In this document: piece by piece, positions 2,307 to 41,790 of the stretch | How the letters are laid out: the number at the start of each line of letters is the position of its first letter | Numbering within the stretch: position 1 is the stretch's first letter | Notes under the pieces: model-generated | Seen by the model: the letters and a program-made list of their open reading frames with translations, nothing else | Databases searched by the model: none | What the model was told of the DNA's origin: nothing | Program-made: the position numbers and the translations under genes | Assembly: GCA_004298325.1 (NCBI GenBank) | Contig: SCUF01000022.1 | Location: 1 to 43,237, forward strand | Source of the DNA: Betaproteobacteria bacterium | GTDB taxonomy: Bacteria; Pseudomonadota; Gammaproteobacteria; Burkholderiales; SG8-39 | Length of the DNA stretch: 43,237 nt | Direction of reading: 5' to 3'

Positions 2307-2335
2307 TTGATAGTATGGTTTATAGGATGTATAGT
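2307..2335 (+). promoter_or_regulatory. Sigma70-like promoter of the synthetase/TRAP operon
   Basis: TTGATA (2307-2312) and TATAGT (2330-2335) are separated by exactly 17 bases, each matching five of six consensus positions. It is the best housekeeping-type promoter I noticed in this GC-rich window. Transcription would start near 2342, leaving a leader of roughly 70 bases before the ATG at 2415. The box lies in the divergent gap with the MBL-fold gene. Confidence 0.65.
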
Positions 2336-2414
2336 GGACTCCGCTCCGTTGCCGCAAGTCGCCGCGATCGCCCGCGGCGCCGGGCCGGGGGGATGCCTCG
2401 TGGAGGAGGGTTCG

Positions 2415-4565
2415 ATGTCGGCGGCGCAGCGCTCTGCCGTATCCGCAATGCAAGGCGCGCGCGGCGCCATGCAGGCGCTGCTTCAGCCGCGCTCGGTCGC
2501 CATCCTGGGTTGCTCGAGCGATCTGAACCGGATTAGTGGCCGGCCACTGAGATATTTCCTGGCAAAGGGCTACCAGGGGGCGCTCTACCCGGTCAATCCG
2601 AATCAGCGCGAGATCGCCGGGTTGCGCTGCTACCCGGAAGTAGGCGCCATTCCGGGCACGGTCGATCTTGCCATTGTCGCCGTTGCCGCGGAGCGGGTGA
2701 TCGAGAGCATGCGTCAACTGGTCGCGAAAGGCGTCCCTGCCGCGGTGATCTTCAGCTCCGGATTTGCGGAGATGGGCGAGGCGGGCGCCGCAGCGCAGCG
2801 CGAGTTGCTGGCGATCGCGCGCGCCGGCGGCGTGCGCTTCTGTGGTCCCAACGCGGTCGGCGTGGTGAACGCCTTCGAGGCGGTCACCGCGAGCTTCAGC
2901 GAGTATCTCGAAGGCGCATTGCCGGTGGGGCCGATCGGCTTCGTCAGTCAGTCGGGCGCTTTCGGCACTGCCATTGCCGTGCTCGCGCGCGAGCGTCAGC
3001 TCGGTCTGGGCTACTACGTCAATACCGGCAATGAAGCGGACATCGACGTCGCCGACGCGCTTGGTTTCATCGTGGAGGATCCGCGCATTCGTGTCGTGGC
3101 CGGCTACGTCGAGGGCATTCGCGATGGTCGCAAGCTCCTCGCGGTGGCCGAGCGTGCGATGGCTCTCGGCAAGCCGATGGTCCTGACAAAAGTCGGCCGG
3201 AGCGCCGCGGGCGCGCGGGCGGCGGCATCCCACACGGGCGCACTCGCGGGAGCGGATGCGGTGCTTGACGGCGTGCTGCGCCAAAAAGGCGTGATCCGGG
3301 CCGATGACGAGGAGCAGATGATCGACCTCGTCGAGATGTTTGCCCATTGCCGCCTGCCGAAGGGGCCGAATCTCGGCATCGTCAGTCAGTCGGGTGGCGC
3401 GGGCGTCCTCGCCTGCGACCGCGCCGAGGCGCACGGCCTGCGCGTGCCGATTCTCGGTGACGCGACACAGGACAGCCTCAGGCAGGTGCTGCCCCAATAC
3501 GCCGCGGTTGCCAATCCGGTTGACCTCACCGGGTTGTCGCTGGCCGAGCCCGAGCTCATCCGGCGCACGATGAAGCAGGTGCTCGCCGATCCGGCGGTGG
3601 ACATCGGCTTGCTGTGGGTGCGCCTGATGGACAAGTATGCCGGGCTCATGACTGACATCATCACGGATGTCGGAGCATCGACCCGCAAGACGTTCGTCGT
3701 GAGTTGGCTTGCCCCACCGCCGGTCGCGCTCAAGGCGCTCAGGGAGCGCGGCACCTGTGTTGCGCGCGGTGCTGCGCAGGCGATGGATGCTCTCGCGGGA
3801 CTGGTCCGCTATGGCGAGGCGCGCAAGCGCTGGCTCGACGATGCACCTGCGCGGGAGGCGGACGCAGGGCGCCCGCCAGTGCCGCCATTGCCCGCTGGGG
3901 CCGGCGCCGTATCGAGCGTCCCTGCCGCCGCCATCCTGCACAGCGCAGGGGTGCGGTTGGTGCCTTTCGAACTGGCGCGTGACGCCGACACGGCCGCCGC
4001 CGCCGCACGGCGACTCGGCTATCCGGTAGCCCTGAAAATCGAATCGCGCGACATTGCGCACAAGACCGAAGCGGGTGGCGTGCTGCTCGGTGTCGCTGAC
4101 GAGAAGGCGCTGCGCACCGGATTCGCGCAGATCCTGCGTTCGGTGCGCGAGCGCCATGGCGCGGCACGCATCGACGGTGTCGTGGTGCAGAAGATGCTCG
4201 ACCCGGGTGTCGAAATGGTGATCGGCGTGCAACAGGACGAGGCCTTCGGCCCCATCGTGATGGTCGGCTTTGGCGGAATTCTCGTCGAGGTGATGCAGGA
4301 CGTGGTATTCGCGGCAGCGCCGTTGACGTTCCGCGAGGCCGACACCATGCTCTCCAGCCTGAAGGCAGCTCCGGTGCTGCAGGGCGTGCGCGGCAAGCCG
4401 CCGGTCGATCGTGCGGCGCTGTGCAACTTTCTCGTCAACGTCTCGAGGCTCGCTGCGGCAGCCGGCCCACGGCTTGCGGAACTCGACCTCAATCCGGTGA
4501 TGGCGGGCGCGGATGGCAGCGTCGCTGTCGATTGGCTGCTCATTCAAGGAAGCGAGAGCGAATGA
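2415..4565 (+). CDS. Acetate--CoA ligase (ADP-forming) family acyl-CoA synthetase, alpha-beta fusion
   Basis: This 716-residue protein would activate a carboxylic acid to its CoA thioester using ATP, giving ADP and phosphate. It has an N-terminal CoA-binding domain (SVAILGCS), ligase domains with GFVSQSGAFG and ASHTGALAG (phospho-histidine H273), and a second SQSGGAG loop. A C-terminal ATP-grasp domain follows (GYPVALKIES, HKTEAGGV). The ATG at 2415 was chosen because GGAGGAGGG lies just upstream; the frame stays open to 2307, but that would begin inside the promoter. It is the first gene of the plus-strand operon, and its TGA overlaps the next ATG (ATGA), so translation is probably coupled. 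Pairing with a TRAP importer suggests it activates the imported acid. The substrate cannot be read from the sequence. Confidence 0.9.
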   Translation: MSAAQRSAVSAMQGARGAMQALLQPRSVAILGCSSDLNRISGRPLRYFLAKGYQGALYPVNPNQREIAGLRCYPEVGAIPGTVDLAIVAVAAERVIESMRQLVAKGVPAAVIFSSGFAEMGEAGAAAQRELLAIARAGGVRFCGPNAVGVVNAFEAVTASFSEYLEGALPVGPIGFVSQSGAFGTAIAVLARERQLGLGYYVNTGNEADIDVADALGFIVEDPRIRVVAGYVEGIRDGRKLLAVAERAMALGKPMVLTKVGRSAAGARAAASHTGALAGADAVLDGVLRQKGVIRADDEEQMIDLVEMFAHCRLPKGPNLGIVSQSGGAGVLACDRAEAHGLRVPILGDATQDSLRQVLPQYAAVANPVDLTGLSLAEPELIRRTMKQVLADPAVDIGLLWVRLMDKYAGLMTDIITDVGASTRKTFVVSWLAPPPVALKALRERGTCVARGAAQAMDALAGLVRYGEARKRWLDDAPAREADAGRPPVPPLPAGAGAVSSVPAAAILHSAGVRLVPFELARDADTAAAAARRLGYPVALKIESRDIAHKTEAGGVLLGVADEKALRTGFAQILRSVRERHGAARIDGVVVQKMLDPGVEMVIGVQQDEAFGPIVMVGFGGILVEVMQDVVFAAAPLTFREADTMLSSLKAAPVLQGVRGKPPVDRAALCNFLVNVSRLAAAAGPRLAELDLNPVMAGADGSVAVDWLLIQGSESE

Positions 4566-5782
4566 AAAATTCCCTGCGAGGCGCCGTGGCGATCGTCGGA
4601 TACGGCAGGACACCGTACAGCCGCGCCAAGCCGGGCGAGCGCATCCGTACGGTCGATCAGTACATCGCGTGGGCTGCGGCACTGGCGCTCGAAAAGGCCG
4701 GCATGTCGAAGCAGGACTTCGACGGCCAGGGCCTCGGCGTGTCGCACGCCGAGGCAAGCCACACCGTCAACTGGTCGGCCGCCGTGGCCGAATTGCTCGG
4801 CATCACTCCGCGGGCGCTGATCCGCGGTGACCAGGGCGGCGCTTCCGCAGCCGCAATGCTCATCCGCGCGGCCGCGATGATCCAGGCGGGCGTCGTCGAC
4901 CGGGTGCTGGTCGTCGGCGCGGATACACCCCTCACCATACCTTCGATCGCGCCCGGGTTGCCACTCTCTCCGGAGCGCACGCGCGGCGTGTTCTGGGAAT
5001 TTCAGGGCCCGGTCGGCGTGATGGGCGCCAATCACCAATTTGGACTGGTGCAGACGCGCTACATGCACCAGTACCCGCTCAGGAGCGAGCAGCTCGGCAA
5101 GATCGCCGTGACGACGCGGTATCACGCCTCGCTCCATCCCGGCGCAATCTACCGCAAGCCGATCACGCTGGATGACTATTTGAACTCCCGCGTTCTTTCC
5201 GACCCGATACGACTGCTGGACTGTGTCCCGATGGTCAATGGCGGACTTGCCTACATCGTGACATCGGCCGAGACGGCGAGGACCATCACCGACAAACCGG
5301 TGTACCTGCTCGGGTGTGGCGAAGTCAGCAACTATTACAGTGGATCGCGCATGCGCCCCGATATCACCGTCACTGGATTCGTGCAGGCCGCGCCGGAGGC
5401 TTTCAGGATGGCCGGTGTGCAGCATGAAGACATCGATGTGTTCGAACCCTACGACGACTATCCGATGATCGTGCTGATGCAGATGGAGGATTACGGCTTC
5501 TGCAAGAAGGGCGAGGGCGGCAAGTTCGTCGACGAGCACGACCTGACTTTCAAGGGCGATTTCCCCGTCTCGACCGACGGCGGACAGTTGTCCGGGGGTC
5601 AGCCGGGCGGGGCGATCGGCGGATTCATGCCGATCGCCGAGGCGGTGACGCAGTTGCGTGGCGAAGCGGGCGAGCGGCAGGTCAAAGGAGCCGTTGTCGC
5701 TGCCGCATCGGGCTTCGGCGGCATTCCCTACGCGCGGAATGCCCGCAGCTGCATCACGTTGGTACTCGGATCGGAGACCTAG
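4562..5782 (+). CDS. Thiolase-like protein lacking the catalytic triad; candidate acyl-CoA retro-aldolase subunit
   Basis: The 406-residue protein has a thiolase fold of the SCP2/lipid-transfer type, beginning AIVGYGRTPYSR and including VLVVGAD. The position of the nucleophilic cysteine in SCP2 thiolases is glycine here (G93 in GGASAAAM). The usual GHPxGATG is GQPGGAIGG, with glutamine (Q347) for histidine. The second cysteine region reads ASGFGG, without cysteine. It is unlikely to perform classical Claisen thiolysis. Thiolase-like proteins paired with a DUF35 protein include the Ltp2-type aldolases of steroid side-chain breakdown, where tyrosines act instead; tyrosines occur here in FEPYDDY and EDYGF. 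The DUF35 partner follows after three bases. The fold call is firm; the aldolase role is inference. Confidence 0.82.
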   Translation: MKNSLRGAVAIVGYGRTPYSRAKPGERIRTVDQYIAWAAALALEKAGMSKQDFDGQGLGVSHAEASHTVNWSAAVAELLGITPRALIRGDQGGASAAAMLIRAAAMIQAGVVDRVLVVGADTPLTIPSIAPGLPLSPERTRGVFWEFQGPVGVMGANHQFGLVQTRYMHQYPLRSEQLGKIAVTTRYHASLHPGAIYRKPITLDDYLNSRVLSDPIRLLDCVPMVNGGLAYIVTSAETARTITDKPVYLLGCGEVSNYYSGSRMRPDITVTGFVQAAPEAFRMAGVQHEDIDVFEPYDDYPMIVLMQMEDYGFCKKGEGGKFVDEHDLTFKGDFPVSTDGGQLSGGQPGGAIGGFMPIAEAVTQLRGEAGERQVKGAVVAAASGFGGIPYARNARSCITLVLGSET

Positions 5783-5785
5783 ACG

Positions 5786-6205
5786 ATGTCACAGACGCCG
5801 CAGGGAAAGCCGGTCCCCGAACTCACGGATCTGACCCGCCCGTTCTGGACGGCCGCGAAACAGGGCAAGCTGGTCATGCAAAAGTGCAGTCAGTGCGGCA
5901 CGCTCGATTTCCTGCCCAAGCCCTGGTGCATCGAGTGCGGTCATCTCGACCTGGAGTGGGTCGAGGTGAAGCCCCTGGGTACGGTCTACTCGCACAGTAC
6001 CGCGCGTACGGTGATGATGAACTACCCGGCATGGAAGAACGATCTGCCGTTCGTGATGTGCATCATCGAACTGGACGACGGCCCGAGGATGTACGGGCAG
6101 CTGACCGGCTGCCCGCCCGAGAAGGTGAGGATCGGCATGCGCGTCGAAGCCTGGTTCGAGGCCGTCAGCGCGGAAGCGGCCGTTGCGAAGTTCCGGCCGG
6201 TCTAG
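5786..6205 (+). CDS. Zn-ribbon/OB-fold DUF35 protein, partner of the thiolase-like protein
   Basis: The 139-residue protein carries a rubredoxin-like zinc ribbon with cysteines C34, C37, C48 and C51 (CSQC and CIEC). A C-terminal OB-fold follows, containing GTVYSHST and PFVMCIIELDDG. Proteins of this family form complexes with SCP2-type thiolases or aldolases and complete or stabilise the CoA-binding site. The position, three bases after the thiolase-like gene and three bases before the transporter gene, fits obligate co-expression. The length is usual for stand-alone family members. Confidence 0.88.
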   Translation: MSQTPQGKPVPELTDLTRPFWTAAKQGKLVMQKCSQCGTLDFLPKPWCIECGHLDLEWVEVKPLGTVYSHSTARTVMMNYPAWKNDLPFVMCIIELDDGPRMYGQLTGCPPEKVRIGMRVEAWFEAVSAEAAVAKFRPV

Positions 6206-8125: not shown

Positions 8126-8140
8126 CCCGAGGAGATCGTG

Positions 8141-9151
8141 ATGAAGAGGAAACTGGCCAGTACCGCGGCGGCAGCCGTGGCGATTTGCGTTTGCGGCGTC
8201 GCGCCCGCGTTTGCAGCAGACCGTGCCCCGGTTACGGTGAGCCTGATTGCCGCGCCTTTCGGGACCGGCTCCTACGTGATCTCGAATGCGCTGGAGCAGA
8301 TCTCGAACAAGCATCCGTGGCTGCGGATCGTCAGCTCCGAGAGCCCGGGATTCGTCTTCAACTACAGGAAGCTGGCGAGCGAGCCGGCGCTGCAGAAGAC
8401 GACCATCATCGGTTCGGGCCCCGTGGTCGCGGCGCTCGCCGAGCGCGGCGAGAAGCCGTTCGACAAGAAGTATCCCGGCGGCGTCAAGCTGATCGCCAAC
8501 TACAACCTGGTGGCGGTCTGGCTCGCGACGCTTGATCCGAACATCCGGACGGTGGCCGACCTCGCAGGCAAGAAGCTCGCACTCGGCCAGGCGCCGCAGA
8601 TCAACTGGGCGGTCGAACCGAGAGCGGTGATCAACATCGGCTACGGCATCCCCGCGGACAAGATCAACATCCAGTACGTCGGCCCGGCCGGCGCGGTCGC
8701 TGCGCTGCTCGACGGGACCGTCAACGCCGCGGTGGTCGGCGGCTACCTGGATCCGGAAAAGAGCAAGGTCGCCCTCAGCCCGCAGACCATGGAATTCGTG
8801 TCCTCGGGAAGGAATGTGCGCCATCTGGGATGGAACGCGGACGCGGTGAGGAAGACCGCGGCGACGGGCATCCCGATCGTGCCGTTCACCATTGCGGCGA
8901 ACTCGTTCGACGGACAAACCGAGGCGCTGCCGATCTTCGTCGACAACGCCGCCTGGGTGGCCTCGCCCAACTTTCCGGAAGACCTCGCCTACGAGATCAC
9001 CAAGCTGATCATCGACAACGTCGAGCGCTTCGGCGAGTACACGGCCATCGGCAAGCTGATGTCGCGCGGTGCACTGCCCTTCGGCTGGCAGCAGAAGGAC
9101 ATCCATCCGGGCGCGCTGCGCGCGTACAAGGAAGCGGGCATCCTCAAGTAG
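8141..9151 (+). CDS. TAXI-family TRAP transporter periplasmic binding protein
   Basis: The ATG at 8141 is preferred over the GTG at 8138 because the GGAG at 8131-8134 is then well spaced. The first 25 or so residues form a signal peptide ending APAFA, with cleavage before ADRAPV. The mature protein shows TAXI features: FGTGSYVISNALEQI, a basic and aromatic ligand region, and DLAGKKLALG. It captures the substrate in the periplasm and delivers it to the fused permease. The ligand is not known. TAXI proteins bind varied carboxylates, and the adjacent acyl-CoA genes favour a monocarboxylic acid rather than an amino acid, by inference. Confidence 0.92.
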   Translation: MKRKLASTAAAAVAICVCGVAPAFAADRAPVTVSLIAAPFGTGSYVISNALEQISNKHPWLRIVSSESPGFVFNYRKLASEPALQKTTIIGSGPVVAALAERGEKPFDKKYPGGVKLIANYNLVAVWLATLDPNIRTVADLAGKKLALGQAPQINWAVEPRAVINIGYGIPADKINIQYVGPAGAVAALLDGTVNAAVVGGYLDPEKSKVALSPQTMEFVSSGRNVRHLGWNADAVRKTAATGIPIVPFTIAANSFDGQTEALPIFVDNAAWVASPNFPEDLAYEITKLIIDNVERFGEYTAIGKLMSRGALPFGWQQKDIHPGALRAYKEAGILK

Positions 9152-9165
9152 CCGGGGGCGCACCG

Positions 9166-10308
9166 ATGCCGCTGCAGTTCACGCCGGAACAGGAGATGCT
9201 GCGCGAGCAGGTCAGCCGCTTCGTGCGCCAGGAATGCTCCGAGCAACTGTTTCGCCGAATGGACGAGGAGGCGCATTACCCTCACGAGCTGTATGCGAAG
9301 CTCGCCGATCTGGGAATGCTTGGCATCCCGATTCCGGTGGCGTACGGCGGATCGGGCATGGGATGCGTGAGCTCGGCGATCTTCCAGGAGGAGTTGAGCA
9401 AGCGCCTGCTGCCGCTGCAGATGACTTTTCAGGTTTCAATCCTGTCGGCCGGCATGGCGATCCTCGATCTCGGAAGCCCGGCGCAGAAGGCGCGCTTCCT
9501 GCCGCAGCTGGCGCAGGGAAAGATCAATTTCTCGATCGCATTCACGGAGCCCAACGCAGGATCCGATGCGGCCGCCATTGCGCTCACGGCGACCGCTTCG
9601 GGTGATGGATTCCGGCTCAATGGCCAGAAGATCTTCATTTCCGCGGCCGACATCAGCGACTTCATGCTGGTGTCGACGCGGACGGACCGCAACGTGCCGA
9701 AACGCGAGGGCATCACGGCGTTCATCGTCGATTCCAGGTCGAAGGGACTCACCATCAGGAAGATCGACAAGCTCGGCATCAAGGCCAATGCCTATTGCGA
9801 GGTGTTCTTTGACGACGTGTACGTGCCAGCCGAGAACATCGTCAACGGCATCAACAAGGGCTGGGCGGTGGTCACTCACAGCCTGGAGCGCGATCGCATC
9901 GGGGCGGCGGCCCGGTGGGTCGGTGTCGGGCAGGAAGCGCTCGACTACGCCGTTGACTTTGCGCGTAACCGCAGTCAGTTCGGACGCAAGATCAGTTCCT
10001 TCGAGTGGACGCGGGATCTCTTCGCCGAGATGCAGACCAAGCTCGATGCCGCGAAGCTCCTGACCTACCGTGCGGCCCGGCTCATGGACGAGGGCAAGCC
10101 GTGCCGCAAGGAAGCGTCCATGGCGAAGCTCTTCGCCTCCGAGTTGGTGGTGGAACTCAGCCGCAGCATGATGCAGGTGCTGGGCGGCTACTCGTATGCA
10201 CTCGAATACCGCAGCCAGCGCTATCTGAGGGACTGCCTGTTCGCCACCATCGGCGCCGGTACGTCGCAGATGCAGAAACTCATCATCGCCAACGAAATGG
10301 GAATCTAG
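9166..10308 (+). CDS. Acyl-CoA dehydrogenase
   Basis: The 380-residue flavoenzyme matches the family along its length. It has an N-terminal helical domain (FTPEQEMLREQV), the FAD-binding AFTEPNAGSDAA loop, the beta domain, and the C-terminal helices with RSQFGRKI and QVLGGYSY. It would introduce an alpha-beta double bond into an acyl-CoA and pass electrons to ETF. At the MCAD catalytic position the usual EGTS is AGTS (A364). The alternative catalytic glutamate used in isovaleryl-CoA-type enzymes is present in SLERDR (E241). The open frame extends back to 8830, but the ATG at 9166, just after the binding-protein stop, gives the normal N-terminus. Confidence 0.9.
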   Translation: MPLQFTPEQEMLREQVSRFVRQECSEQLFRRMDEEAHYPHELYAKLADLGMLGIPIPVAYGGSGMGCVSSAIFQEELSKRLLPLQMTFQVSILSAGMAILDLGSPAQKARFLPQLAQGKINFSIAFTEPNAGSDAAAIALTATASGDGFRLNGQKIFISAADISDFMLVSTRTDRNVPKREGITAFIVDSRSKGLTIRKIDKLGIKANAYCEVFFDDVYVPAENIVNGINKGWAVVTHSLERDRIGAAARWVGVGQEALDYAVDFARNRSQFGRKISSFEWTRDLFAEMQTKLDAAKLLTYRAARLMDEGKPCRKEASMAKLFASELVVELSRSMMQVLGGYSYALEYRSQRYLRDCLFATIGAGTSQMQKLIIANEMGI

Positions 10309-10321
10309 GGGAACACCGCCA

Positions 10322-11089
10322 ATGCATGAGAACGTCCTGCTGACCGAGATCGACGCCCGTGGCGTCGCCACGGTGACCCTGAACCGGCCGGCGGTGCATA
10401 ACGCATTCAATGATGAGCTCATATCCCGGCTGCAAGACGTCTTCACCGAACTCGGCGCCGATTCGCGCGTCCGGGTCATCGTGCTCGCCGGCAACGGCAA
10501 GAGCTTCTGCGCCGGGGCGGACCTCAACTGGATGAAGGCGATGGTGGGGTATTCCGAAGCGGAAAATGTTGCCGATTCAAGCCGCCTCGCCGACATGTTC
10601 TACGGCATCCACGCATGTCCCAAGCCCACCGTTGCCCGGGTTCACGGCGCGGCGCTCGCCGGCGGCATCGGCCTCGTTTCGGCGTGCGACATGGCGGTGG
10701 CGGCGGAGCAGGCGAAATTTGCCATTACCGAGGTGAAACTCGGCCTGCTTCCGGCAAACATCGCGCTCTATCTGGTGCCGAGCATCGGCGAGCGCGCCAT
10801 GCGGCGCTACGCCATGACGGGGGAGACGTTCGATGCCGCCGAGGCGCATCGGATCGGCCTCGTCCACGAAGTCGCGACAGCAGCGGAGCTGGATTCGACC
10901 GTCGCGCGTATCGTCGCGGCGCTGCTTGGCGCCGGACCTCACGCGGTCGCTCAGTGCAAGAAGCTGATCGAGCACGTCGCAGGCCCGGTGGGCGAACAGC
11001 TGCGCCGGGATACGGCGACGTGGCTTGCGCGCGTGCGGGTAGGCGAAGAGGCGCAAAGTCGCATGCAGGCCTTCCTGAGCAGACGCTAG
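10322..11089 (+). CDS. Enoyl-CoA hydratase, methylglutaconyl-CoA-hydratase-like crotonase
   Basis: The 255-residue crotonase has the oxyanion-hole segments KSFCAGADLNWM and HGAALAGGIGLV, and the catalytic-glutamate region FAITEVKLGLLPA. The ADLNWM signature and LGLLPA in place of LGLIPGAGGTQ are characteristic of LiuC/AUH-type methylglutaconyl-CoA hydratases, which act in leucine and isoprenoid-acid catabolism. This hints that the pathway handles a branched or isoprenoid-like acyl-CoA, but substrate cannot be fixed from family resemblance. It is the last gene of the plus-strand operon and shares a CTAG stop overlap with the convergent dehydrogenase. Confidence 0.9.
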   Translation: MHENVLLTEIDARGVATVTLNRPAVHNAFNDELISRLQDVFTELGADSRVRVIVLAGNGKSFCAGADLNWMKAMVGYSEAENVADSSRLADMFYGIHACPKPTVARVHGAALAGGIGLVSACDMAVAAEQAKFAITEVKLGLLPANIALYLVPSIGERAMRRYAMTGETFDAAEAHRIGLVHEVATAAELDSTVARIVAALLGAGPHAVAQCKKLIEHVAGPVGEQLRRDTATWLARVRVGEEAQSRMQAFLSRR

Positions 11090-12288
11090 CGCCGCAGGTC
11101 GCCGCGCGCCGGTTTTTTCACCGGGTGACGGTCTGCAGGCTTGATGCCGAGAGCGTCTTCGGCAAGCAGGATGCGCTGGACGTTCGGCGTGCCTTCCCCG
11201 ACGGTCAGCATGTTCACGTAGGCCGTGATCTTCTTGATCGGGTAGTCATCGGCGAGGGCATAACCCGCAAAGATTTCTGCGGCACCTTGGGCTGCCTGTC
11301 TGGCGACCTTGCCGGCAAAGTACTTGGCCTGCGCCGCAGCGCGGGTTGCAGGACGCCCGGTCTGCATGCACCACGCGGCCTTCCAGGTCAGCGCCCGCGC
11401 CGCGGGAACGTCTGCCGCCATGTCCGCGATCAACTGCTGAATCATCTGGTACTCGCCGAGCGGCCGACCCCGGATGACGCGCGATCTGCAGTAGGCTACC
11501 GCGTGCTCGAAGCAGGCTTGCGCGAGCCCCGTCAGGCGCGCTGCGACCGTGAGCCGGCCGTATTCGAGTGCGTTCATCGCGATCCTGAAGCCTTCGCCTT
11601 CGCCGCCGAGGCGGTTCTCCACCGCGACTTCAAAGTCATCCAGGAATACGGCGCAGGATCGCAGGCAGTTCGACAGACCGGACATGGCGATCGGGTGGGC
11701 GGCATAGCCGGGACGACGCTTGGGCTCGACGACGAAGGCACTGATGCCGGCGTGGCCCGCCGCAGGGTCGGTCTTCGCAAAAAGCAGTCCCGTATCGCAG
11801 GCATTGGCGAACGTAATCCACTGCTTGGAGCCATTCAGACGGTAGCTGTCGCCGTGCCTGCGTGCCGTGGTCTTCATCGCGCCTGCGGCGTCCGAACCGC
11901 CGCCTGGCTCGCTCAGGGCGAACATCCCGATGGCTCGCCCGGCGATCAGGTCGGGCACAAACCGCTCGCTCTGCGCGTTGCTGCCCCAGTTCAGGATCGT
12001 GAGCGGGCAGGTCATGGATTGCTGGTTCATCGCGTAACCGAACTCGGGTGCGAGGCGCGAGAGCTCCTCGGCGATCGCAACGACCGCAAAGAAGCCGGCA
12101 TCCGTGCCACCCAGCGCTTCCGGGAATGCGGCGCCGAAGAGCCCGGCTTCTCCCATCCTGCGGATGATCGGGTAGGGAAACTCACCGCTCGTTTCGTACG
12201 CGCCGAGCGCCGGTGCGATCTCGGTTTCGACGACCCGCCGGACCGTGGCGACGATGGCGTCGTGGTCTTCCGGGAGTTCGAAATCCAT
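11086..12288 (-). CDS. Acyl-CoA dehydrogenase
   Basis: The 400-residue protein begins MDFELPEDHDAI and has the FALSEPGGGSDAAG loop, an RGRPLGEYQMIQ segment and a C-terminal GEGTPNVQR. That last segment keeps the MCAD-type catalytic glutamate which the other dehydrogenase of the region lacks. It is encoded nine bases downstream of the GntR regulator gene on the same strand, so the two are probably co-transcribed. With the convergent operon it gives the locus two dehydrogenases of different catalytic type, perhaps for successive oxidation steps. Confidence 0.92.
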   Translation of the reverse strand: MDFELPEDHDAIVATVRRVVETEIAPALGAYETSGEFPYPIIRRMGEAGLFGAAFPEALGGTDAGFFAVVAIAEELSRLAPEFGYAMNQQSMTCPLTILNWGSNAQSERFVPDLIAGRAIGMFALSEPGGGSDAAGAMKTTARRHGDSYRLNGSKQWITFANACDTGLLFAKTDPAAGHAGISAFVVEPKRRPGYAAHPIAMSGLSNCLRSCAVFLDDFEVAVENRLGGEGEGFRIAMNALEYGRLTVAARLTGLAQACFEHAVAYCRSRVIRGRPLGEYQMIQQLIADMAADVPAARALTWKAAWCMQTGRPATRAAAQAKYFAGKVARQAAQGAAEIFAGYALADDYPIKKITAYVNMLTVGEGTPNVQRILLAEDALGIKPADRHPVKKPARGDLRR

Positions 12289-13097: not shown

Positions 13098-13122
13098 CAT
13101 AGCGTCTTTGCGAGGCCGACCC

Positions 13123-13893
13123 ATGACGCCAGTCCTGTACGAGCGTCCGGCAGAGGGCGTGGCACTGCTGCGGCTCAACCGGCCGCAGGCCCGGAATGCA
13201 TTGAACAACGCCACCCGGGTGGCGCTGGCCGAATACTTTCGCGGTTTCAGCGAGGACAGCGCGACCCGCTGCGTTGTCGTGACGGGCGATGACAAGGCCT
13301 TTGCGGCCGGGGCCGACCTCAAGGAGGTTGCTGCCCTGGGCGCCCGCGAGATGATGCAGACCGGCATCCGCCGGCTCTGGAAAGCCATCGCCGACTGCCC
13401 CAAGCCCGTCATCGCCGCCGTGAATGGCTTCGCGCTCGGAGGGGGCTGCGAGCTTGCCATGCATGCGGACATCATTGTCGCCGGCGAAGGATCCAAGTTC
13501 GGTCAGCCTGAGCTCGGCGTCGGCGTGATCCCGGGCGGTGGGGGCACTCAGCGGTTAGTGAGGGCGGTGGGCAAATTCCGCGCCATGAAGATGCTGCTGA
13601 CCGGGGAAATCGTCGACGGTCGGCAAGCGCTGGAAATGGGTTTGGCGAGCGAAGTCGTGCCGGACGCCGAGGTTCTTGGCCGGGCACTCAGCCTGGCGAA
13701 GCGCATCGCGGATTTGCCTCCGATTGCGGTCGAGCTGTGCAAGGAAGTCGTGCTGACGGGGCAGGATTGTCCTCTCGATGCGGCGTTGAACCTGGAGCGC
13801 AAGGCCTTCGACCTGCTGTTCGATACGTCGGACCAGAAAGAAGGCATGCGGGCGTTCGCGGAAAAGCGCAGGCCTCATTTCACGGGCCGATAG
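13123..13893 (+). CDS. Enoyl-CoA hydratase/isomerase (PaaF-like crotonase)
   Basis: The 256-residue crotonase has both oxyanion-hole segments (KAFAAGADLKEV, NGFALGGGCELA) and the classical FGQPELGVGVIPGGGGTQR, with two catalytic glutamates in the expected region. It should hydrate a 2-enoyl-CoA to the 3-hydroxyacyl-CoA. The ATG at 13123 gives the usual N-terminus (MTPVLYERPAEGVALLRLNRP); a TTG at 13108 is less likely. It is transcribed away from gntR across the dyad and is probably controlled with it. It is the second crotonase of the locus and is of a different subtype from that at 10322. Confidence 0.92.
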   Translation: MTPVLYERPAEGVALLRLNRPQARNALNNATRVALAEYFRGFSEDSATRCVVVTGDDKAFAAGADLKEVAALGAREMMQTGIRRLWKAIADCPKPVIAAVNGFALGGGCELAMHADIIVAGEGSKFGQPELGVGVIPGGGGTQRLVRAVGKFRAMKMLLTGEIVDGRQALEMGLASEVVPDAEVLGRALSLAKRIADLPPIAVELCKEVVLTGQDCPLDAALNLERKAFDLLFDTSDQKEGMRAFAEKRRPHFTGR

Positions 13894-24036: not shown

Positions 24037-24055
24037 AATTTACTCTGACCCCAAT
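24037..24055. repeat. Possible dispersed-repeat motif forming the end of recD
   Basis: AATTTACTCTGACCCCAAT overlaps the recD stop; on the minus strand TTGGGGTCAGAGTAA supplies the last residues (LGSE) and the TAA. It is AT-richer than its surroundings. It resembles REP-like sequences I recall from proteobacterial genomes, which I cannot verify here. Confidence 0.35.
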
Positions 24056-25728
24056 GCTTCCCGCATCCGCTCGATCAACCCCGCATGCCGCTCCGTCTGC
24101 TGCAGGCACGCCGCCCGGAACACTTCCGCACCCCCGACCAGCGTGACGCGCTGCCGCGCGCGCGTGACGGCGGTGTAGAGGAGTTCCCGCACCATCACCG
24201 GCCCCGCCGTCTCGGGCAGCACGCACATGAAGGTGTCGAACTCCGAGCCTTGCGCCTTGTGCACCGTGCTCGCCCAGGCGTCCTCGTGCTCGGGCAGGCG
24301 GTTGGGCGCGATGGCGCGCCACGCGTCGCTCGCGCCCGGGAACCACACCGCGAGCTTGCCATCCTCATCCGGCAGGCAGATGCCGATGTCGCCGTTGAAG
24401 AGCCGCAGCATGTAGTCGTTCCGCATCACCATCACCGGCCGGCCCGGATACCAGGGCGAGCGGCCGCCCGGATCGAGCGGATGGTCGAGCTGGGCGCGCG
24501 CGTGCCGCTCCACCATCCGGTTCATCTCGCGCACGCCGCGCGGCGTGTCGCGCACGGCGGAGAGCAGCCTGAAGCGCGCGAAGGCCTTGAACACCGCGGC
24601 CTTGTCGTCCACCCCAGCGCGCAGCGCGGCGAGGTAGGGCGCGTAACCCTCCAGGATCCGTTTGCGCGTGTCGGGCATCAGCTCGGCGCCGGCGTCGTCG
24701 ATCCAGGTCACGCTTTCGTCCGCGCCGTGCTTCATCCAATCGAGCGCGCGATCGGGCTCGCCCGCGTTGATGTCCGCGGCGAGCCGCCCGATCCCGGAAT
24801 CGGCGGCGAAGCGGTAGCTCTCGGTGAACCAGACCACGCTCGCGGCGAGGGGCGAGCCCTCCCGCGCCGACAGCTCGGCGAACACCGAGCCCACCTCCAC
24901 CGCGGCGAGCTGGTCCTTGTCGCCGAGGAACACCAGGCGCGCGCCCCCGGGCACCGCTTCCACGAGCCGCGCGGCGAGCGCGAGATCGAGCATCGAGGCC
25001 TCGTCCACGACCAGCGCATCGAGCGGCAACGGATTGTTCGCGTCGTGGCGGAAACGCCCCGCCTGCGGCGTCACGCCGAGCAGGCGGTGGATGGTGTGCG
25101 ATTCGGAGGGCAGGCGCTCGCGCACGAGCGGGGAGAGGGAAGCCGCGCGTTCGCGCAGGGTATCGAGCATGCGCGCGGCGGCCTTGCCGGTGGGCGCGGC
25201 GAGCGCGATGCGCGCCTGCGGGTTCTCCTGCAGGATGCGCTCGAGCAGCGCCGCCACGGTGGTGGTCTTGCCGGTGCCGGGACCGCCGCTGATGACGGTG
25301 AGCCGGCGGCTCATCGCGAGCGCTACCGCGTGCTTCTGCCAGTCGGGCTTCGCCCCTGGCGCGGGCGGCGCTGCGCCCAACGCGGCGCGGCGAACGAGAT
25401 TTTCCGCGAGGCGCCGCTCGTAATCGAAATAGCGTCGCAGGTAGAGGCGGTTCGCATCGTCCAGCACGAGCGGCAGCGGCTCGCCCTGCGTCATCCCGGC
25501 CATGCCCGAGGCGAGCAGCAGCTCGCGCAGCGCGTCTGCGGACTTGCCTTCGAGCTCGCTCGCGATCGCCGCGAGCGGGATACAGACATGCCCTTCCGCG
25601 GTGGCAAGGCTTGCGCGCCCAGCGGCGACCTTCAGCACCGCGAGCGCATCGATCGATGCGCCGCGGTTCGCCGCCCAGCGCTGCACGTGCTCGGCGAATC
25701 CCGCGGCGAGATCGTTCGGCGTGGTCAT
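24040..25728 (-). CDS. recD: Exodeoxyribonuclease V alpha subunit (RecD helicase)
   Basis: The 562-residue protein is the fast 5'-3' helicase subunit of RecBCD. It has Walker A GGPGTGKTT (148-156), Walker B-like VVDEASMLDLALAARL, the VWFTESYRF segment, and the late SF1 motifs (VMVMRNDYMLRLFNGDIG, ASTVHKAQGSEFD, LLYTAVTRAR). The ATG at 25728 overlaps the recB stop (ATGA). The C-terminus ends LGSE inside a repeat-like motif, so the last residues may have been replaced. It acts in the cytoplasm on double-strand DNA ends. Confidence 0.95.
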   Translation of the reverse strand: MTTPNDLAAGFAEHVQRWAANRGASIDALAVLKVAAGRASLATAEGHVCIPLAAIASELEGKSADALRELLLASGMAGMTQGEPLPLVLDDANRLYLRRYFDYERRLAENLVRRAALGAAPPAPGAKPDWQKHAVALAMSRRLTVISGGPGTGKTTTVAALLERILQENPQARIALAAPTGKAAARMLDTLRERAASLSPLVRERLPSESHTIHRLLGVTPQAGRFRHDANNPLPLDALVVDEASMLDLALAARLVEAVPGGARLVFLGDKDQLAAVEVGSVFAELSAREGSPLAASVVWFTESYRFAADSGIGRLAADINAGEPDRALDWMKHGADESVTWIDDAGAELMPDTRKRILEGYAPYLAALRAGVDDKAAVFKAFARFRLLSAVRDTPRGVREMNRMVERHARAQLDHPLDPGGRSPWYPGRPVMVMRNDYMLRLFNGDIGICLPDEDGKLAVWFPGASDAWRAIAPNRLPEHEDAWASTVHKAQGSEFDTFMCVLPETAGPVMVRELLYTAVTRARQRVTLVGGAEVFRAACLQQTERHAGLIERMREALGSE

Positions 25729-28700
25729 GCGGCGAGCGCCTCCCGGCCGCCGATCAACCGGTCGAGCGCGGCGAGCGCGTCCATGGTCGGGCGGTGGAAC
25801 CAGACGCCGAGCGCGTTGCCTTCGCCGTCGCGCCAATCCGGGCGCACGCCGCGCACGAAGAGATACGCCGCGCCGCCGAAGTGCCTGTCGCAGTCGTAGC
25901 CCGGCAGGCGCCGGCCGAGGTAGCGGTGCAGCGCCACCGAGTACAGGAGGCTCTGCAGGTGGTAGTCGTGCTCGGTCATCGCCGCGGTGACGCGCTCGCT
26001 CGCGTAGTCTTCACGCGCCCAACCGAGGTGGTTCGACTTCCAGTCGAGCACGTACCAGCGGCCGGCGTGTTCGAAGACGAAGTCGATGTAGCCCTTGAGG
26101 TAGCCCTGCAGCGTCTCGAAAGCGAGGCGCCGCACCGGGTAGCCGTGCGCGCGTAGCCACGCGTTGAGGCGCTGCGGATCGAGGCCGGCGGCGGGCAGGT
26201 GGAATCCCAGTTCGTTCAGGCGCCGGTTGCGGGGCAGTGTCCCGAGCACGATGCCGTCCGGCAGTTCGGCTCCGAGCACATCTTGCATCATTGCGCGCAG
26301 CATCTGTGCATGCAGCGCCGAACCGCCGCGCTGCGGATGCTGCGCGAGGGCGCGCCCGATCGCATCGTCCCAGGTCGCGGAATCGGTGAAATCGGCGTGC
26401 TCGAAAGCCGCGTGCACGCAATCGCCTGCCGAAGGGCCGCGCGGGAAACGCAGGATGTCGTGCGCCGGCAGTTCTTCGGCCGGTGCGGAGGCGGCAGGAA
26501 TCGCAGCGCGCGCATCGTGATCGGAGGCGGCGGATTCCTGCTCGGCGCCGTGCGCGAGCGCGGTGAAGCTGCCGATGCGCCAGCCCGGGTCGATGTGCTT
26601 CGGGGCGGGCCGCGCCGCGAGGCTCTCGGGCGAGGCGCCGGGCAGCGCGAGCGCCGCGCCGCGCTCGAGCGGCAAGTCGGCGAGGCGGATGTGCGGCTTG
26701 GCGGCATCGGCGATGCGCTGCCACGCCTGCTCGATGTCCTGCGCGGCCATTTCCTGCTTCTGCCAGTCGGCATACGAAAGACCGCCTCCGGCGGCGAGCC
26801 AGTTGAGCAGGCTTTTCGTGCTCTGCTTCGGCGTCGGATCGCCATTGCCGTGCGCGTAGAGGTAGCACCCGGCCACGAGATAGCAGCGGTGCACCGCGCG
26901 CGTGAGCGCGACGTAGGCAAGCCGCACGTCCTCGGCGGCCTGCTCCTCACGGCGGCGCTGCTTGATCTCCTTGTCATCCTTCGCATCGGGGCAAAAATCG
27001 ATCACGCCGTTGCCATCTTCGTCGTGATACTCGACCACGTCCGGCTCGCCGCGGCTCGAGCGGTAGCCGTCCCAGAGGAACGGGCAGAACACGATGCCGT
27101 ATTCGAGGCCCTTCGCCTTGTGGATGGTGACGACCTGGACGAGGTTGCGGTCCGACTCCAGCCGCACCTGGGCCTCTTCGCCCGCGGCGGCTTCCGCGCG
27201 CTGCGTGGCGAGCCAGCGCGCGAGCGCGTCCGGCGCCGGATGCGCGATGCAAGCGCGGTGCAGCAGCTCGCCGAGGTGCAGGAGGTTGGTGAGCCGGCGC
27301 TCGCCGTCGGCGTGCGCAAGCAGCCGCCGGCTCACGCCCGCCTCGTCCATCCAGCGCCGCAGCATGAAGCCGAAGCCGCGCGCAAGCCAAACCTTTCGCA
27401 GCTCGTCGAAGCGCGCGGTCCACGCGGCGAGCGCGGCGTCGTCGCGCGCGATGGCTTCGATCTCGCCGGCGGCCGCGCCCATCAGCTCGGTGGCGAGCGC
27501 CGCGAGGAGCCGTGCCTCGCGCGCGGGCTCGAGGATCGCGGCGAGCACCTGCCCGAGGTCCCCGGCTTCGTGCGAGGCGAAGACGCTCTGCTGCGAAAGC
27601 TCCACGCTGCCGATGCCCAGCAGCGCGAGCGCCTGCTTCACCCAGCTGCCCTGGCGGTGGCTGCGCACCAGCACCGCGATGTCCTTCGCGCTCAACGCCT
27701 CGCCCCCGATCCTGATGCGTCCCGCAGCGCCCTCGTTCAGCAGCCGCGAGATCTCGCCCGCAGTGGCCTGCACCGCGAGTTCCTGCGCGCGCTCGCGCGG
27801 GATGTAGTCGCCGCCCGCCTGCGGCAGGCGCCAGAGGCGGAGCGGCGCGTCGAGGTTCCTGCGTTCGCTCTCGTCCGCGAAGGCGAGCCGCGGCTTCTCG
27901 CCGAGCGTCACCGCGTGATACGCGACCCCCTGCAGGATGAAGCCGCCGGGATTGGCGCCGAAGAGCGCGTTGCAGGCGCGGATCAAGCCGTCGACCGAGC
28001 GCTGGTTGGCGGCGAGCGTGTGTTGGTCCTGCGCGCGCGCCTTCGCCTGCAGGTAGGTGTGCAGGTCGGCGTTGCGGAAGCTGTAGATCGCCTGCTTGGG
28101 ATCGCCCACGAGGAAGAGCGGGCCGCGCGCGCCGGTCTCGCCGGGAGAATCGTAGATCGCCAGGAAAATCGCGCACTGCAAAGGATCGGTGTCCTGGAAC
28201 TCGTCGATCAGCGCGGCCGGGTAGCGCTTGCGCAGTGCCCCGGCGAGCCAGGGACGCGCGCCGTTGCGGAGCGCGTCCCAGGCGTTGTAGAGGATGTCGT
28301 CGAACGCGACCACGCGCCGGTCGCGCTTCTTCCGGCGCAGCTCGCCGCCCGCCTGCTGCGCCATGTCGCGCAGGAGGCGCAGGCGCTGGCGCGCGAGCTG
28401 CTCCAGCATGCTCCGACGTAATGCAACCAGTCTCTGTGCAGCGTCAAAAAACGCGTGATGCGGCGGCGTCATTTTCGACTTCTTCTTGTCGTCGAGATTG
28501 CCGGCAGTCAGCAGTTCCGTCTTGCCTTTCCTGTCAATACCGCTCAGCAGCGGATTGCCGCCAGCGAGCCATGCATCCCATGCCGCTGCGCTTCTTGCAA
28601 CGCGGGACTCGTCGTAAGAATTGCCCTTGAGCGAGGAAAGTCCGGCGACAAGGGTCGCCATGGCCTCGGATCGATCTCGTTGCCAGATCTCGCGCGCCGT

Positions 28701-29390
28701 CGCGAATGCGGCGTCAAGCTCCGGTCTGAGCGGCTCAGGCGGAAGATCGAGATCGTCGGGCCAGATCACGCGCGAGAGCGGCTTCGCCTGCACACGTTTC
28801 AGGACCTTCGCCCAGGTCTCGGGCGAATCCTTCGCCTCGCCGAGCCAGGCGGCGAGATCGCCGTCGCCCTGCGTGCCCGCCACCTCGCGGCGCCAGAAAT
28901 CGGCCACCGCCTCGTGGCGCAGATCCGCATCGTCCTCGATCAGCTCCAGACCGTAGGGCAGGCCCGCGGCGAGTGGTGTGTCGGCGAGCGCGCGCTGGCA
29001 GAAGGCGTGGATGGTGTAGATCGCTGCCTCGTCGAAGGTGCCGAGCGCGGCTTCGAGGCGCTTTTCCATCTCGCCGCGCGTGCAGGCGCCTGTCGCTTCC
29101 AGCGCCTCGACCAGTCGCGGCACGAACGGGTCGCCCGAACCCGCGCGGCCGCGCAGGAAGTCGAGCGCTTCGGCGATGCGCGCGCGGATGCGCTCGCGCA
29201 GCTCGGCGGTCGCTGCGTTGGTGAAGGTGACCACCAGGATCTGCTGCGCTTCCAGAGCTCGCTCGAGGAGCAGCCGCAGATAGAGGCCGCAGATGTTCCA
29301 GGTCTTGCCGGTGCCCGCGGAGGCCTCGATCAGGTTGACGCCGTCGAGGTCGCAGCCGAAAACGTCGAGCGCTCGCGGGGCGCGGCTCAC
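25725..29390 (-). CDS. recB: Exodeoxyribonuclease V beta subunit (RecB helicase-nuclease)
   Basis: The 1221-residue protein has N-terminal UvrD-type helicase motifs, with Walker A ASAGTGKT (23-30), LVVTFTNAATAELRERI, ALIDEFQDTDPLQ, FLVGDPKQAIYSFR and VQVVTIHKAKGLEY. The C-terminal RecB nuclease domain contains YIDFVFEHAGRWYVLDWKSNHLG, including the D-x-K active-site residues. The GTG at 29390 overlaps the recC stop (GTGA) and gives the standard N-terminus; longer frames run into recC. It performs 3'-5' unwinding, cutting and RecA loading. Confidence 0.95.
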   Translation of the reverse strand: MSRAPRALDVFGCDLDGVNLIEASAGTGKTWNICGLYLRLLLERALEAQQILVVTFTNAATAELRERIRARIAEALDFLRGRAGSGDPFVPRLVEALEATGACTRGEMEKRLEAALGTFDEAAIYTIHAFCQRALADTPLAAGLPYGLELIEDDADLRHEAVADFWRREVAGTQGDGDLAAWLGEAKDSPETWAKVLKRVQAKPLSRVIWPDDLDLPPEPLRPELDAAFATAREIWQRDRSEAMATLVAGLSSLKGNSYDESRVARSAAAWDAWLAGGNPLLSGIDRKGKTELLTAGNLDDKKKSKMTPPHHAFFDAAQRLVALRRSMLEQLARQRLRLLRDMAQQAGGELRRKKRDRRVVAFDDILYNAWDALRNGARPWLAGALRKRYPAALIDEFQDTDPLQCAIFLAIYDSPGETGARGPLFLVGDPKQAIYSFRNADLHTYLQAKARAQDQHTLAANQRSVDGLIRACNALFGANPGGFILQGVAYHAVTLGEKPRLAFADESERRNLDAPLRLWRLPQAGGDYIPRERAQELAVQATAGEISRLLNEGAAGRIRIGGEALSAKDIAVLVRSHRQGSWVKQALALLGIGSVELSQQSVFASHEAGDLGQVLAAILEPAREARLLAALATELMGAAAGEIEAIARDDAALAAWTARFDELRKVWLARGFGFMLRRWMDEAGVSRRLLAHADGERRLTNLLHLGELLHRACIAHPAPDALARWLATQRAEAAAGEEAQVRLESDRNLVQVVTIHKAKGLEYGIVFCPFLWDGYRSSRGEPDVVEYHDEDGNGVIDFCPDAKDDKEIKQRRREEQAAEDVRLAYVALTRAVHRCYLVAGCYLYAHGNGDPTPKQSTKSLLNWLAAGGGLSYADWQKQEMAAQDIEQAWQRIADAAKPHIRLADLPLERGAALALPGASPESLAARPAPKHIDPGWRIGSFTALAHGAEQESAASDHDARAAIPAASAPAEELPAHDILRFPRGPSAGDCVHAAFEHADFTDSATWDDAIGRALAQHPQRGGSALHAQMLRAMMQDVLGAELPDGIVLGTLPRNRRLNELGFHLPAAGLDPQRLNAWLRAHGYPVRRLAFETLQGYLKGYIDFVFEHAGRWYVLDWKSNHLGWAREDYASERVTAAMTEHDYHLQSLLYSVALHRYLGRRLPGYDCDRHFGGAAYLFVRGVRPDWRDGEGNALGVWFHRPTMDALAALDRLIGGREALAA

Positions 29391-32300: not shown

Positions 32301-32680
32301 CGCCGCGCGAGGTCGAGGCGCATGACCGCGTCGGCGCCCTCGAGGTAGCTCTTCAACCGCGCGTGTTTGCCGGTGAACTTGGCGTCGCCCAGCGCCTCGT
32401 AAACACGCCACGCGAGCACGTCGGGCGCGAAGGGTGAATCCCGCTCCACGTCCACGATGAGCGCGATCTGCTTCCACAGCCATTGCCCGAGATAGGAAAA
32501 CTCGACGTTCGCGCAGATGCCGTACCGGTCGGCGATCGTCAGCTCGATCTTCCGGCCGATCGCCGTGCTGGGGATGATGATCTGCTGCGCAGAAAAGGGG
32601 TCAGGACCCTTTTCGTGGAGCTGCTGAAGCAGGTCCTCGAGCAGGAGTTCGAACCGGTTGGAGAAGGAGACGTGGAGCAT
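29387..32680 (-). CDS. recC: Exodeoxyribonuclease V gamma subunit (RecC)
   Basis: The 1097-residue protein starts MLHVSFSNRFELLLEDLL and has IIPSTAIGRKIELTIADRYGICANVEFSYLG, the typical RecC N-terminus. It lacks intact ATPase motifs, as expected for the helicase-like scaffold that recognises Chi. Later segments (FSSISSLRNLPYRIVCAVGLDDSNFP, ERLYLSYTGRSVRDNS) are well conserved. It is the first of three overlapping genes (recC-recB-recD). Residues 23-30 are encoded by a perfect inverted repeat. Length is normal. Confidence 0.95.
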   Translation of the reverse strand: MLHVSFSNRFELLLEDLLQQLHEKGPDPFSAQQIIIPSTAIGRKIELTIADRYGICANVEFSYLGQWLWKQIALIVDVERDSPFAPDVLAWRVYEALGDAKFTGKHARLKSYLEGADAVMRLDLARRIAQLIEHYITYRPHFLAAWSAKKRAPIEGLDATGKEDEAWQAALWRRISAEIGAATEHPSVTFFRKIESMDHAALAAAGLPESAHVFCLPSLPPLYLHMLRQLSRVTRLQLYVLNPCQEYWFEVVDRKRLSWLAAKGKAEHHEVGNSLLAAWGKQTQAHIDLLYSGESEIEVTDSAFEPSGRETLLGRIQDAILELKELQAGSVTLAKDDRSLEVHVCHSLTRELEVLHDQLLALFAGPNPPKPQEILVVTPQLEDAAPLIDAVFGTAPHGRYIPYAITGQPQRRSNPIARALCDVVALTAGRHPASEVFDLLMQAPVAARFGLHASDLEAIRVWIEQAGIRWALEGEERKAFGLPASEFHSFADGLQRLYLAYAMGESTACVDGRIGAGNPEGQEALALGAFWRFVEELRRLRRDWRRPHDAAGWREVLGGALERLALDAIEWAEDFRVVRRALADLQDHMERGGLKDPVPLEVVQSALGELLDDPARGGVPSGRVTFSSISSLRNLPYRIVCAVGLDDSNFPTAARALEFDLMALAPQRGDRQRRTDERNLFLDSLLSARERLYLSYTGRSVRDNSPKPPSVLIAELLDYAVRACSRDVEGEEAIRRRLVIEHPLQPFSPEYFASDADPKKRSFNAEYCEALRAQAFTPPSPEPLAGDADDDEAPDPGLPFFPMPLASPEPEWRVVRLEQLRQFFANPCRYLLRQRLGIAMPEQAAELPDDEPFLPEWPGRQAMAERLLAPALEGAGEEALLALARGGNEFPSGPLGDAALAAEIRQLRTFVQGLQEDIGGAPPQPHAAALEFEFEGESWRLEGAVGELHSGRLVRLRYDDVRATDYLAGWIAHLFLCATLEGPAVTRWHSRNGFYELQPYVEARERLAELMALYREGLQAPLHFFPKSAWAYVTGDGDLGKAKGRWQHWKNPAFGESADPAYRLALRGVTDPLDARFIELAERVLKPLRQHVTDPRL
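32592..32614. repeat. Perfect inverted repeat inside the recC 5' coding region
   Basis: GAAAAGGG (32592-32599), a seven-base loop GTCAGGA and CCCTTTTC (32607-32614) form a perfect eight-base stem. It encodes RecC residues 23-30 (EKGPDPFS). A hairpin this close to the start codon could affect translation, or it may be a captured dispersed repeat. Confidence 0.5.
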
Positions 32681-40983: not shown

Positions 40984-41009
40984 AGCCCGCATCCCAAGGA
41001 GAACGCCCC

Positions 41010-41789: not shown

Positions 41790-41790
41790 G

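Follow-up and report, generated by a model that had tools for sequence, protein, structure and literature searches.

In the 43,237-nucleotide stretch of DNA analysed in this study (hereafter the window; contig SCUF01000022.1 of the Betaproteobacteria bacterium assembly GCA_004298325.1), two adjacent genes probably encode a thiolase-fold retro-aldolase of the YDD subtype, which is sister to the bile acid side-chain aldolase Sal. An earlier note on this DNA had paired the two open reading frames (ORFs), both of which are present, and had read them as a possible retro-aldolase that cleaves a 3-hydroxyacyl-coenzyme A (CoA) in place of thiolysis. This reading is supported by the residues of the larger protein, which retains Gly93 and a predicted base, Tyr297, and falls within a Gly93/Tyr297 clade together with CtSal, TcLtp2 and IpfD. 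The pair consists of the following genes:

4562..5782, + strand: thiolase-fold protein without the nucleophilic Cys, proposed large subunit of the retro-aldolase; 406 residues; PF22691 at 146.6 bits; key residues Gly93, Tyr297-Asp298-Asp299-Tyr300, Gln342 and Gln347
5786..6205, + strand: DUF35 partner with a rubredoxin-like zinc ribbon (C34, C37, C48, C51) and an OB fold; 139 residues; PF12172 and PF01796 above cut-off

The DUF35 partner named in the earlier note is borne out by this zinc-ribbon/OB gene, which stands directly behind the thiolase-like gene. The PDB entries it matches best are 6ok1, through the DUF35 protein ChsH2, and 9myr, through chain B. All 12 aligned DUF35 rows have its four zinc-type Cys residues.

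Active-site residues

Alignment to the Cys/His thiolase 7yvy places Gly93 at the nucleophilic Cys and Gln347 at the His of GHP, in agreement with the earlier note, which had given the latter motif as GHPxGATG. Furthermore, the His of the thiolase HDxF motif is replaced by Tyr297 (motif YDDY, Tyr297-Asp-Asp299-Tyr300), which, judged from the sequence, is a positive sign of an aldolase that the note had overlooked. The residues expected of SCP2-type or DUF35-type thiolases, namely the nucleophilic Cys, the HDxF His and the GHPxG His (the last in 23 of the 23 Cys/His rows of the family alignment described below), are represented by Gly93, Tyr297 and Gln347, and the marks of a thiolase-fold retro-aldolase, namely the thiolase fold, Gly at the nucleophile site, the base Tyr of YDx(F/Y) and an adjacent DUF35 gene, are all found in the window pair. 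The note had also pointed to the second Cys region, which reads ASGFGG. The SGFGG loop (383-387) indeed carries no Cys, yet this is not diagnostic, as a Cys at 381-389 occurs in 0/23 Cys/His relatives. In classical thiolases, the Cys of the C-terminal CxG loop is catalytic. All 12 close relatives of the window protein (loci L001-L011 and L043; 70-89% identical) retain Gly93, YDDY and Gln347, and a sequencing accident is ruled out on this account.

Family alignment and phylogeny

Genome contigs, plasmids and whole genomes were the sources of the relatives, which were aligned in 118 rows: the window protein, four references taken from the PDB and 113 distinct ORFs of 117 loci; six loci (L046, L060, L062, L075, L076 and L077) yielded no row. 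The window protein occurs twice (as W and as L013), and counts other than that of covariation use 91 Gly/Tyr rows. The L095 row (frame 0) seems to be a shadow frame, and several ORFs in one scan are probably shadow frames. The row set at <80% identity comprises 83 rows, from which the tree was built with 80 after the long rows L074, L089 and L095_own2, two of which are exceptions to the residue rule, had been dropped; seven trait columns were left out of the tree construction.

Positions 93 and 297 covary across the 118 rows, with Gly/Tyr in 92, Cys/His in 23 and neither pair in 3, although Gly/Tyr rows are over-represented because two locus sets (30 and 20) were picked by likeness to the window protein. 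The Gly93/Tyr297 proteins form a single clade (60 rows, support 100/100) that holds Sal, Ltp2 and IpfD. Within it, the YDD subclade, which includes the window protein (12 tree rows, 100/99), is sister to Sal (96/96), and IpfD, Ltp2, Sal and YDD share a branch with several uncharacterised rows (88/91). In 41 of 44 loci, the thiolase-like gene has a DUF35 match no more than 1.5 kb away.

The YDD rows are uniform in their active-site residues: Tyr297, Asp298, Asp299, Gln342, Gln347, Gly92 and Gly93 are invariant in 21/21 rows, Asp299 being always accompanied by both Gln residues in the way that Cys occurs with Gln/Gln in 3 Sal-type rows, and Asn257 is present in 21/21 YDD rows and in 0/70 other Gly/Tyr rows. 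The invariance of those seven residues is what would be expected of a working site and argues against an inactive scaffold for binding CoA or for keeping DUF35 and further partners together, a role that is suggested by the scaffolding function of DUF35 proteins in related complexes (PMC12329534, in excerpt) and that we consider extremely unlikely here.

The alignment also bears on the possibility that the protein is a thiolase employing another Cys as nucleophile, for example Cys221, Cys314 or Cys397. All three are invariant in the 13 rows of the tight subfamily around the window protein, and Cys397 occurs only there; however, Cys221 is found in 85/91 and Cys314 in 81/91 Gly/Tyr rows, so that neither is specific to the group, and the Cys93, His297 and His347 of the Cys/His rows have all been changed. 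This alternative, to which hardly any probability is given, was rejected for want of a His invariant across the YDD clade, and the three Cys residues may be structural.

Comparison with characterised enzymes

The nearest characterised relative of the window protein is Sal, and not Ltp2 or BbsAB, which the earlier note had chosen for comparison. CtSal, which together with the DUF35 domain of CtShy forms the bile acid side-chain aldolase of Comamonas testosteroni (PDB 9MYR), is the best PDB match by sequence (8.2e-59). According to excerpts of PMC12329534, CtSal and TcLtp2 are biochemically proven retro-aldolases; in CtSal, Tyr302 and Cys304 (YDCY) are catalytic, the latter being backed by Gln347 and Gln352, and Gly89 occupies the site of the lost nucleophile; the catalytic residues of TcLtp2 are Tyr294 of YDHF and Tyr344. 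In our alignment, in which the CtSal chain numbers equal those of the paper plus 24 by our own count, Tyr302 corresponds to Tyr297 of the window protein, Cys304 to Asp299, Gln347 to Gln342, Gln352 to Gln347 and Gly89 to Gly93. By these correspondences, the window protein is predicted to combine the aldolase base with the Sal-type Gln pair, and has Asp in place of the essential Cys of Sal.

The two proteins thus have in common the Gly at the nucleophile site, the catalytic Tyr, the Gln pair and a sister-clade relationship, but differ in the Cys304/Asp299 position and in that the window protein stands outside the Sal branch. In addition, Gln161, the proposed oxyanion-hole residue of Sal, and Tyr165 are Ala156 and Phe160 in the window protein, and the DUF35 of Sal belongs to the MaoC hydratase Shy and has a Cys3His1 zinc site, whereas that of the window is free-standing and of the Cys4 type. 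TcLtp2-ChsH2(DUF35) (PDB 6OK1) resembles the window pair in the fold, the nucleophile-site Gly, the Tyr of YDxF and a DUF35 partner with a Cys4 zinc pattern, but has Tyr344 where the window protein has Gln347, His296 where it has Asp299 and YDHF in place of YDDY, and belongs to a separate clade. Direct membership of the Sal or the Ltp2 group was ruled out by the tree and by residues (Asp299 for the former; Gln347 and YDDY for the latter).

A third comparison is offered by IpfD-IpfE of ibuprofen degradation (plasmid pIBU218, L047; assigned by gene order), where the step assigned to IpfD is the retro-aldolase cleavage of an ibuprofen-derived dihydrodiol-CoA to propionyl-CoA and 4-isobutylcatechol (PMC9195938, in excerpt). 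The nucleophile-site Gly, the Tyr of YDxF, an OB-fold partner and an adjacent ligase gene of the AMP-binding (adenosine monophosphate) type are present there; the differences are YDAF, a Tyr at the position of Ltp2 Tyr344 and a hydroxyl made by a dioxygenase. IpfD has a long branch and an uncertain place in the tree (67/83 with L035). The same plasmid carries a second thiolase-like/OB-fold pair of the Ltp2 type (YDHF; L047:938-2502, - strand), together with hydratase-type and CaiB-type CoA-transferase genes. The benzoylsuccinyl-CoA thiolase BbsAB (7PXP; thiolase by record name), which reportedly works through a Cys, shares the thiolase fold and the DUF35 partner; membership of this group was ruled out, as the window pair scores far below the NCBIfam cut-offs (108.1 bits with 750 needed for BbsB, and 26.9 with 250 needed for BbsA).

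Enolate stabilisation is chemistry that a retro-aldolase has in common with a Cys-independent decarboxylase, or another enolate-forming enzyme, acting on a malonyl-type acyl-CoA, the pocket of which would stabilise the enolate after the loss of CO2. Very weak malonyl-CoA decarboxylase activity is cited for TbSLP, a YDCF thiolase-like protein, in excerpts of PMC12329534, but the same excerpts describe CtSal, from the sister group, as without malonyl-CoA decarboxylation, and the neighbours of the window pair could make a 3-hydroxyacyl-CoA while none was seen to make malonyl-CoA; a decarboxylase is on the whole improbable.

YDD relatives in loci of the auxin (iad) type

Five YDD rows in five genomes (L118-L122) were examined with wide flanks; L116 (YDDY, 98% identical to L115) lay outside this wide-flank set. 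All five loci carry an iad-type gene set, which consists of Rieske alpha and beta genes, an AMP-forming-type ligase gene, the YDDY gene, a gene for a fusion of DUF35 with a short-chain dehydrogenase (SDR; a single protein matching PF12172, PF01796 and PF00106) and a putative cyclase gene; these assignments rest on Pfam matches or on similarity to copies that were annotated or had been scanned with Pfam. L121 departs from the others in having the Rieske genes after the cyclase gene and not ahead of the ligase gene. The fusion genes are located as follows:

DUF35-SDR fusion genes: L118:9429-10673, L119:9501-10787, L120:6552-7793, L121:8869-10137, L122:7643-8887

The Rieske alpha protein of L119 has a 738-bit match to 9O71, against 178 bits for the first entry of another kind, the Rieske beta protein of L118 matches the beta chain of 7yls/8h2t/9o71, and the other three loci are tied to these two by likeness. 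Excerpts of PMC12633357 identify 9O71 as IadDE from Variovorax paradoxus CL014, and the gene order at the YDDY loci agrees with iadDEFGHI as described there. Because the Variovorax iad gene set is carried by 5/5 loci, the YDDY gene of L118-L122 is probably IadG; the naming of IadG and IadH rests on gene order, since no Variovorax sequence of either was at hand. These IadG-like proteins share with the window protein the YDD clade, Gly93, YDDY, Gln342, Gln347, Asn257 and a DUF35-bearing gene directly behind, but are 34-35% identical to it and have their DUF35 fused to an SDR. At the iad loci, the beta-hydroxyl would come from a Rieske dioxygenase route, whereas the window has no Rieske or AMP-forming ligase match at E<=1e-3, by which an ibuprofen- or auxin-type pathway was ruled out for the window.

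As far as the excerpts of PMC12633357, a preprint, describe it, deletion of iadF, iadG, iadH or iadI leads to the accumulation of C10H9NO4, IadG is called a ketothiolase from annotation, and IadF, IadG and IadH together remove the acetyl side chain 'reductively' to C8H7NO2. As dioxindole-3-acetic acid (C10H9NO4) is a tertiary alcohol at its beta-carbon, it should be unable to become a 3-oxoacyl-CoA, and ordinary thiolysis would be closed to it. Retro-aldol cleavage to isatin and acetyl-CoA, followed by one reduction, leads to exactly the reported formula C8H7NO2, and fits the tertiary beta-hydroxy acid of IadG better than a ketothiolase does. We lean towards the view that the YDD clade represents a further catalytic subtype, in which an Asp two residues past the base Tyr replaces the Cys of Sal and the second Tyr of Ltp2, and which includes IadG; the acetyl side chain of auxin would then be lost not through a ketothiolase but through a retro-aldol reaction that splits dioxindole-3-acetyl-CoA into isatin and acetyl-CoA, the DUF35-SDR fusion would supply both the DUF35 of the aldolase and the reductase that converts isatin to C8H7NO2 (dioxindole), and the window pair would represent this enzyme in its beta-oxidation-type form.

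If so, the relatives of the window protein include a step of auxin breakdown annotated as a thiolase, and the combination of Tyr and Asp would be a new active-site variant among enzymes of interest for C-C bond cleavage. Several entries named 'thiolase family protein' (e.g. L043, L044 and L045) carry Gly/Tyr for Cys/His, and the two-residue rule of Gly93 and Tyr297, which may serve as a quick re-annotation test, places them with the aldolases. On the 2,4-dichlorophenoxyacetic acid (2,4-D) plasmid pJP4 (L044:6337-10560), the neighbours of tfdA are genes for an acyl-CoA synthetase, a YDDF thiolase-like protein, a DUF35 protein and a Rieske alpha subunit, which are arranged like a side-chain removal module of the ipf/iad type.

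Gene neighbourhood and proposed pathway

The genes around the pair are the following:

2307..4565, + strand: nucleoside diphosphate (NDP)-forming acyl-CoA synthetase (substrate activation); PF13549, PF13607, PF13380
6209..8125, + strand: TRAP transporter fused permease; TIGR02123 at 529.6 bits, above cut-off
8138..9151, + strand: TAXI-family TRAP solute-binding protein; TIGR02122 at 109.3 bits, above cut-off
9163..10308, + strand: acyl-CoA dehydrogenase; PF02771, PF02770, PF00441; start placed where the family matches begin, the listed open frame running from 8830
10322..11089, + strand: enoyl-CoA hydratase-family protein, with PDB matches; nearest NCBIfam models PRK07468, gamma-carboxygeranoyl-CoA hydratase, both below cut-off
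11086..12288, - strand: second acyl-CoA dehydrogenase, convergent; homologue at the same place in L001
12298..13050, - strand: GntR/UTRA regulator, possibly of this cluster; PF00392, PF07702
13108..13893, + strand: second enoyl-CoA hydratase; PF00378

The stop codon of the synthetase gene overlaps the start of the aldolase gene (ATGA at 4562-4565). As the earlier note had remarked, the dehydrogenases and hydratases nearby fit an aldol cleavage, in that together with the acyl-CoA synthetase they could make a 3-hydroxyacyl-CoA; its statement that a 3-hydroxyacyl-CoA dehydrogenase (HADH) gene is lacking from the operon agrees with the finding of no homologue in the 43-kb window by three same-genome queries at E<=1e-3. 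The window likewise has no second thiolase with the queries tried, and a single DUF35-SDR query matched the DUF35 region only. The grouping of dehydrogenase, hydratase and aldolase genes in a single cluster follows the logic of the steroid propionyl-removal operon (PMC12502768, in excerpt).

We infer the reaction, the substrate and the role of Asp299 as follows. A carboxylic acid would be imported by the TRAP-TAXI transporter and joined to CoA by the NDP-forming synthetase, after which desaturation by the acyl-CoA dehydrogenase and hydration would give a 3-hydroxyacyl-CoA, the C2-C3 bond of which would be split by the 4562-5782 protein with its DUF35 partner. In this step, Tyr297 would abstract the proton of the 3-hydroxyl, which would lean on the Gly93 amide, and cleavage would release an aldehyde or ketone and an acyl-CoA enolate, to be reprotonated to acetyl-CoA (or, with a 2-methyl substrate, to propionyl-CoA). 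Asp299, near Gln342 and Gln347, would most likely take the role of Sal Cys304, either as a proton donor or as a partner that tunes Tyr297. The hydratase at 10322, through its nearest models, would hint at a beta-branched acid; this hint is weakened by both scores lying below cut-off and by the clusters of L043 and L007 carrying a hydratase of the 13108 type (56% and 65% identical, respectively, to the one at 13108-13893).

Aldolase active sites can run in either direction, and on such general chemical grounds the pair could serve the aldol-type joining of an aldehyde or ketone with the enolate of acetyl-CoA or propionyl-CoA. However, the uptake transporter, the CoA ligase, the acyl-CoA dehydrogenase and the hydratases point to breakdown, which makes a synthetic role very unlikely.

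Structure model and opposing evidence

A model of the aldolase and DUF35 proteins as one fused chain has a mean predicted local distance difference test (pLDDT) score of 71.8 and a predicted template modelling (pTM) score of 0.66. The best fold matches of its thiolase part, 9myr_A (Z 42.4), 4u4e (41.9) and 6ok1_A (41.5), are tied. The model, so far as a prediction can, confirms the fold and says nothing on catalysis.

Several observations weigh against the retro-aldolase assignment. The model is middling, with loops 340-352 and 388-394 at pLDDT <50 and the active-site loops hence poorly set, and the Cys thiolase 7yvy scores Z 41.0, so close to the 42.4 of Sal that the fold cannot separate an aldolase from a thiolase. 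The split between Gly/Tyr and Cys/His corresponds to one change on the tree and not to many independent ones, so that the residue rule is a lineage marker and not repeated evidence. His347 is kept in 59/91 Gly/Tyr rows, which are uncharacterised as far as we know. To our knowledge, there are no activity data for any YDD protein. In excerpts of PMC12329534, replacement of CtSal Cys304 by Ala, Ser or His abolished activity, and therefore the swap at the Asp299 position need not keep the reaction. Regarding the auxin pathway, the excerpted scheme of PMC12633357 puts dioxindole before isatin, which counts against a retro-aldol step because isatin would be its first product, and the other projected intermediates of the IadFGHI chain are given as undetected. 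A weak HADH match was found at the contig edge of L011, the sole match among 19 other loci searched, and no aldehyde dehydrogenase or SDR-domain match was obtained in the window with the queries tried. A literature search on thiolase, DUF35, TRAP transporter and retroaldol gave only the Sal paper, and one on the gene names of the operon gave nothing. The search on IadG with aldolase terms returned only PMC12633357, the excerpted text of which has no words beginning with retro-aldol, thiolase or DUF35; PMC10374108, as excerpted, names IadG only as a cloned gene.

As a separate observation, position 299 is occupied by Ala, Cys or Ser in the 59 rows that keep His347; these rows constitute a large group, with up to six window-like matches in one genome.

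Distribution of the tight subfamily

The tight subfamily comprises 13 loci (the window, L001-L011 and L043), in several of which the flanking DNA is short. An NDP-forming synthetase homologue occurs in 12/13 of these, being one gene away and weaker in L005 and on the opposite strand in L011, and a DUF35 gene follows that of the aldolase in 12/13; the exception in both cases is L009, where the contig ends at the aldolase. The acyl-CoA dehydrogenase is near full length in 7 loci, more distant in L005 and fragmentary in L009 and L010, and a hydratase is found in 5. The subfamily seems to be rare: a search at E<=1e-100 recovered, among 369 class-level genomes, that of the window only, with no further genome at this level among 300 order-level genomes, and the scan of genome contigs gave 11 loci at least 70% identical to the window protein.

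Other genes of the window

At the contig edge, a second NDP-forming synthetase frame (45-1406, + strand) shows only CoA-binding and flavodoxin-like domains in Pfam, with the ATP-grasp domain unmatched, and a metallo-beta-lactamase-fold gene lies at 1403-2203 on the opposite strand. Further along, RecD-like, RecB-like and RecC genes stand side by side (24040-32680, - strand), and genes for a transketolase-type subunit, an enoyl-CoA hydratase-family protein and a 2-oxoacid dehydrogenase acyltransferase are consecutive at 39595-42774 (+ strand).

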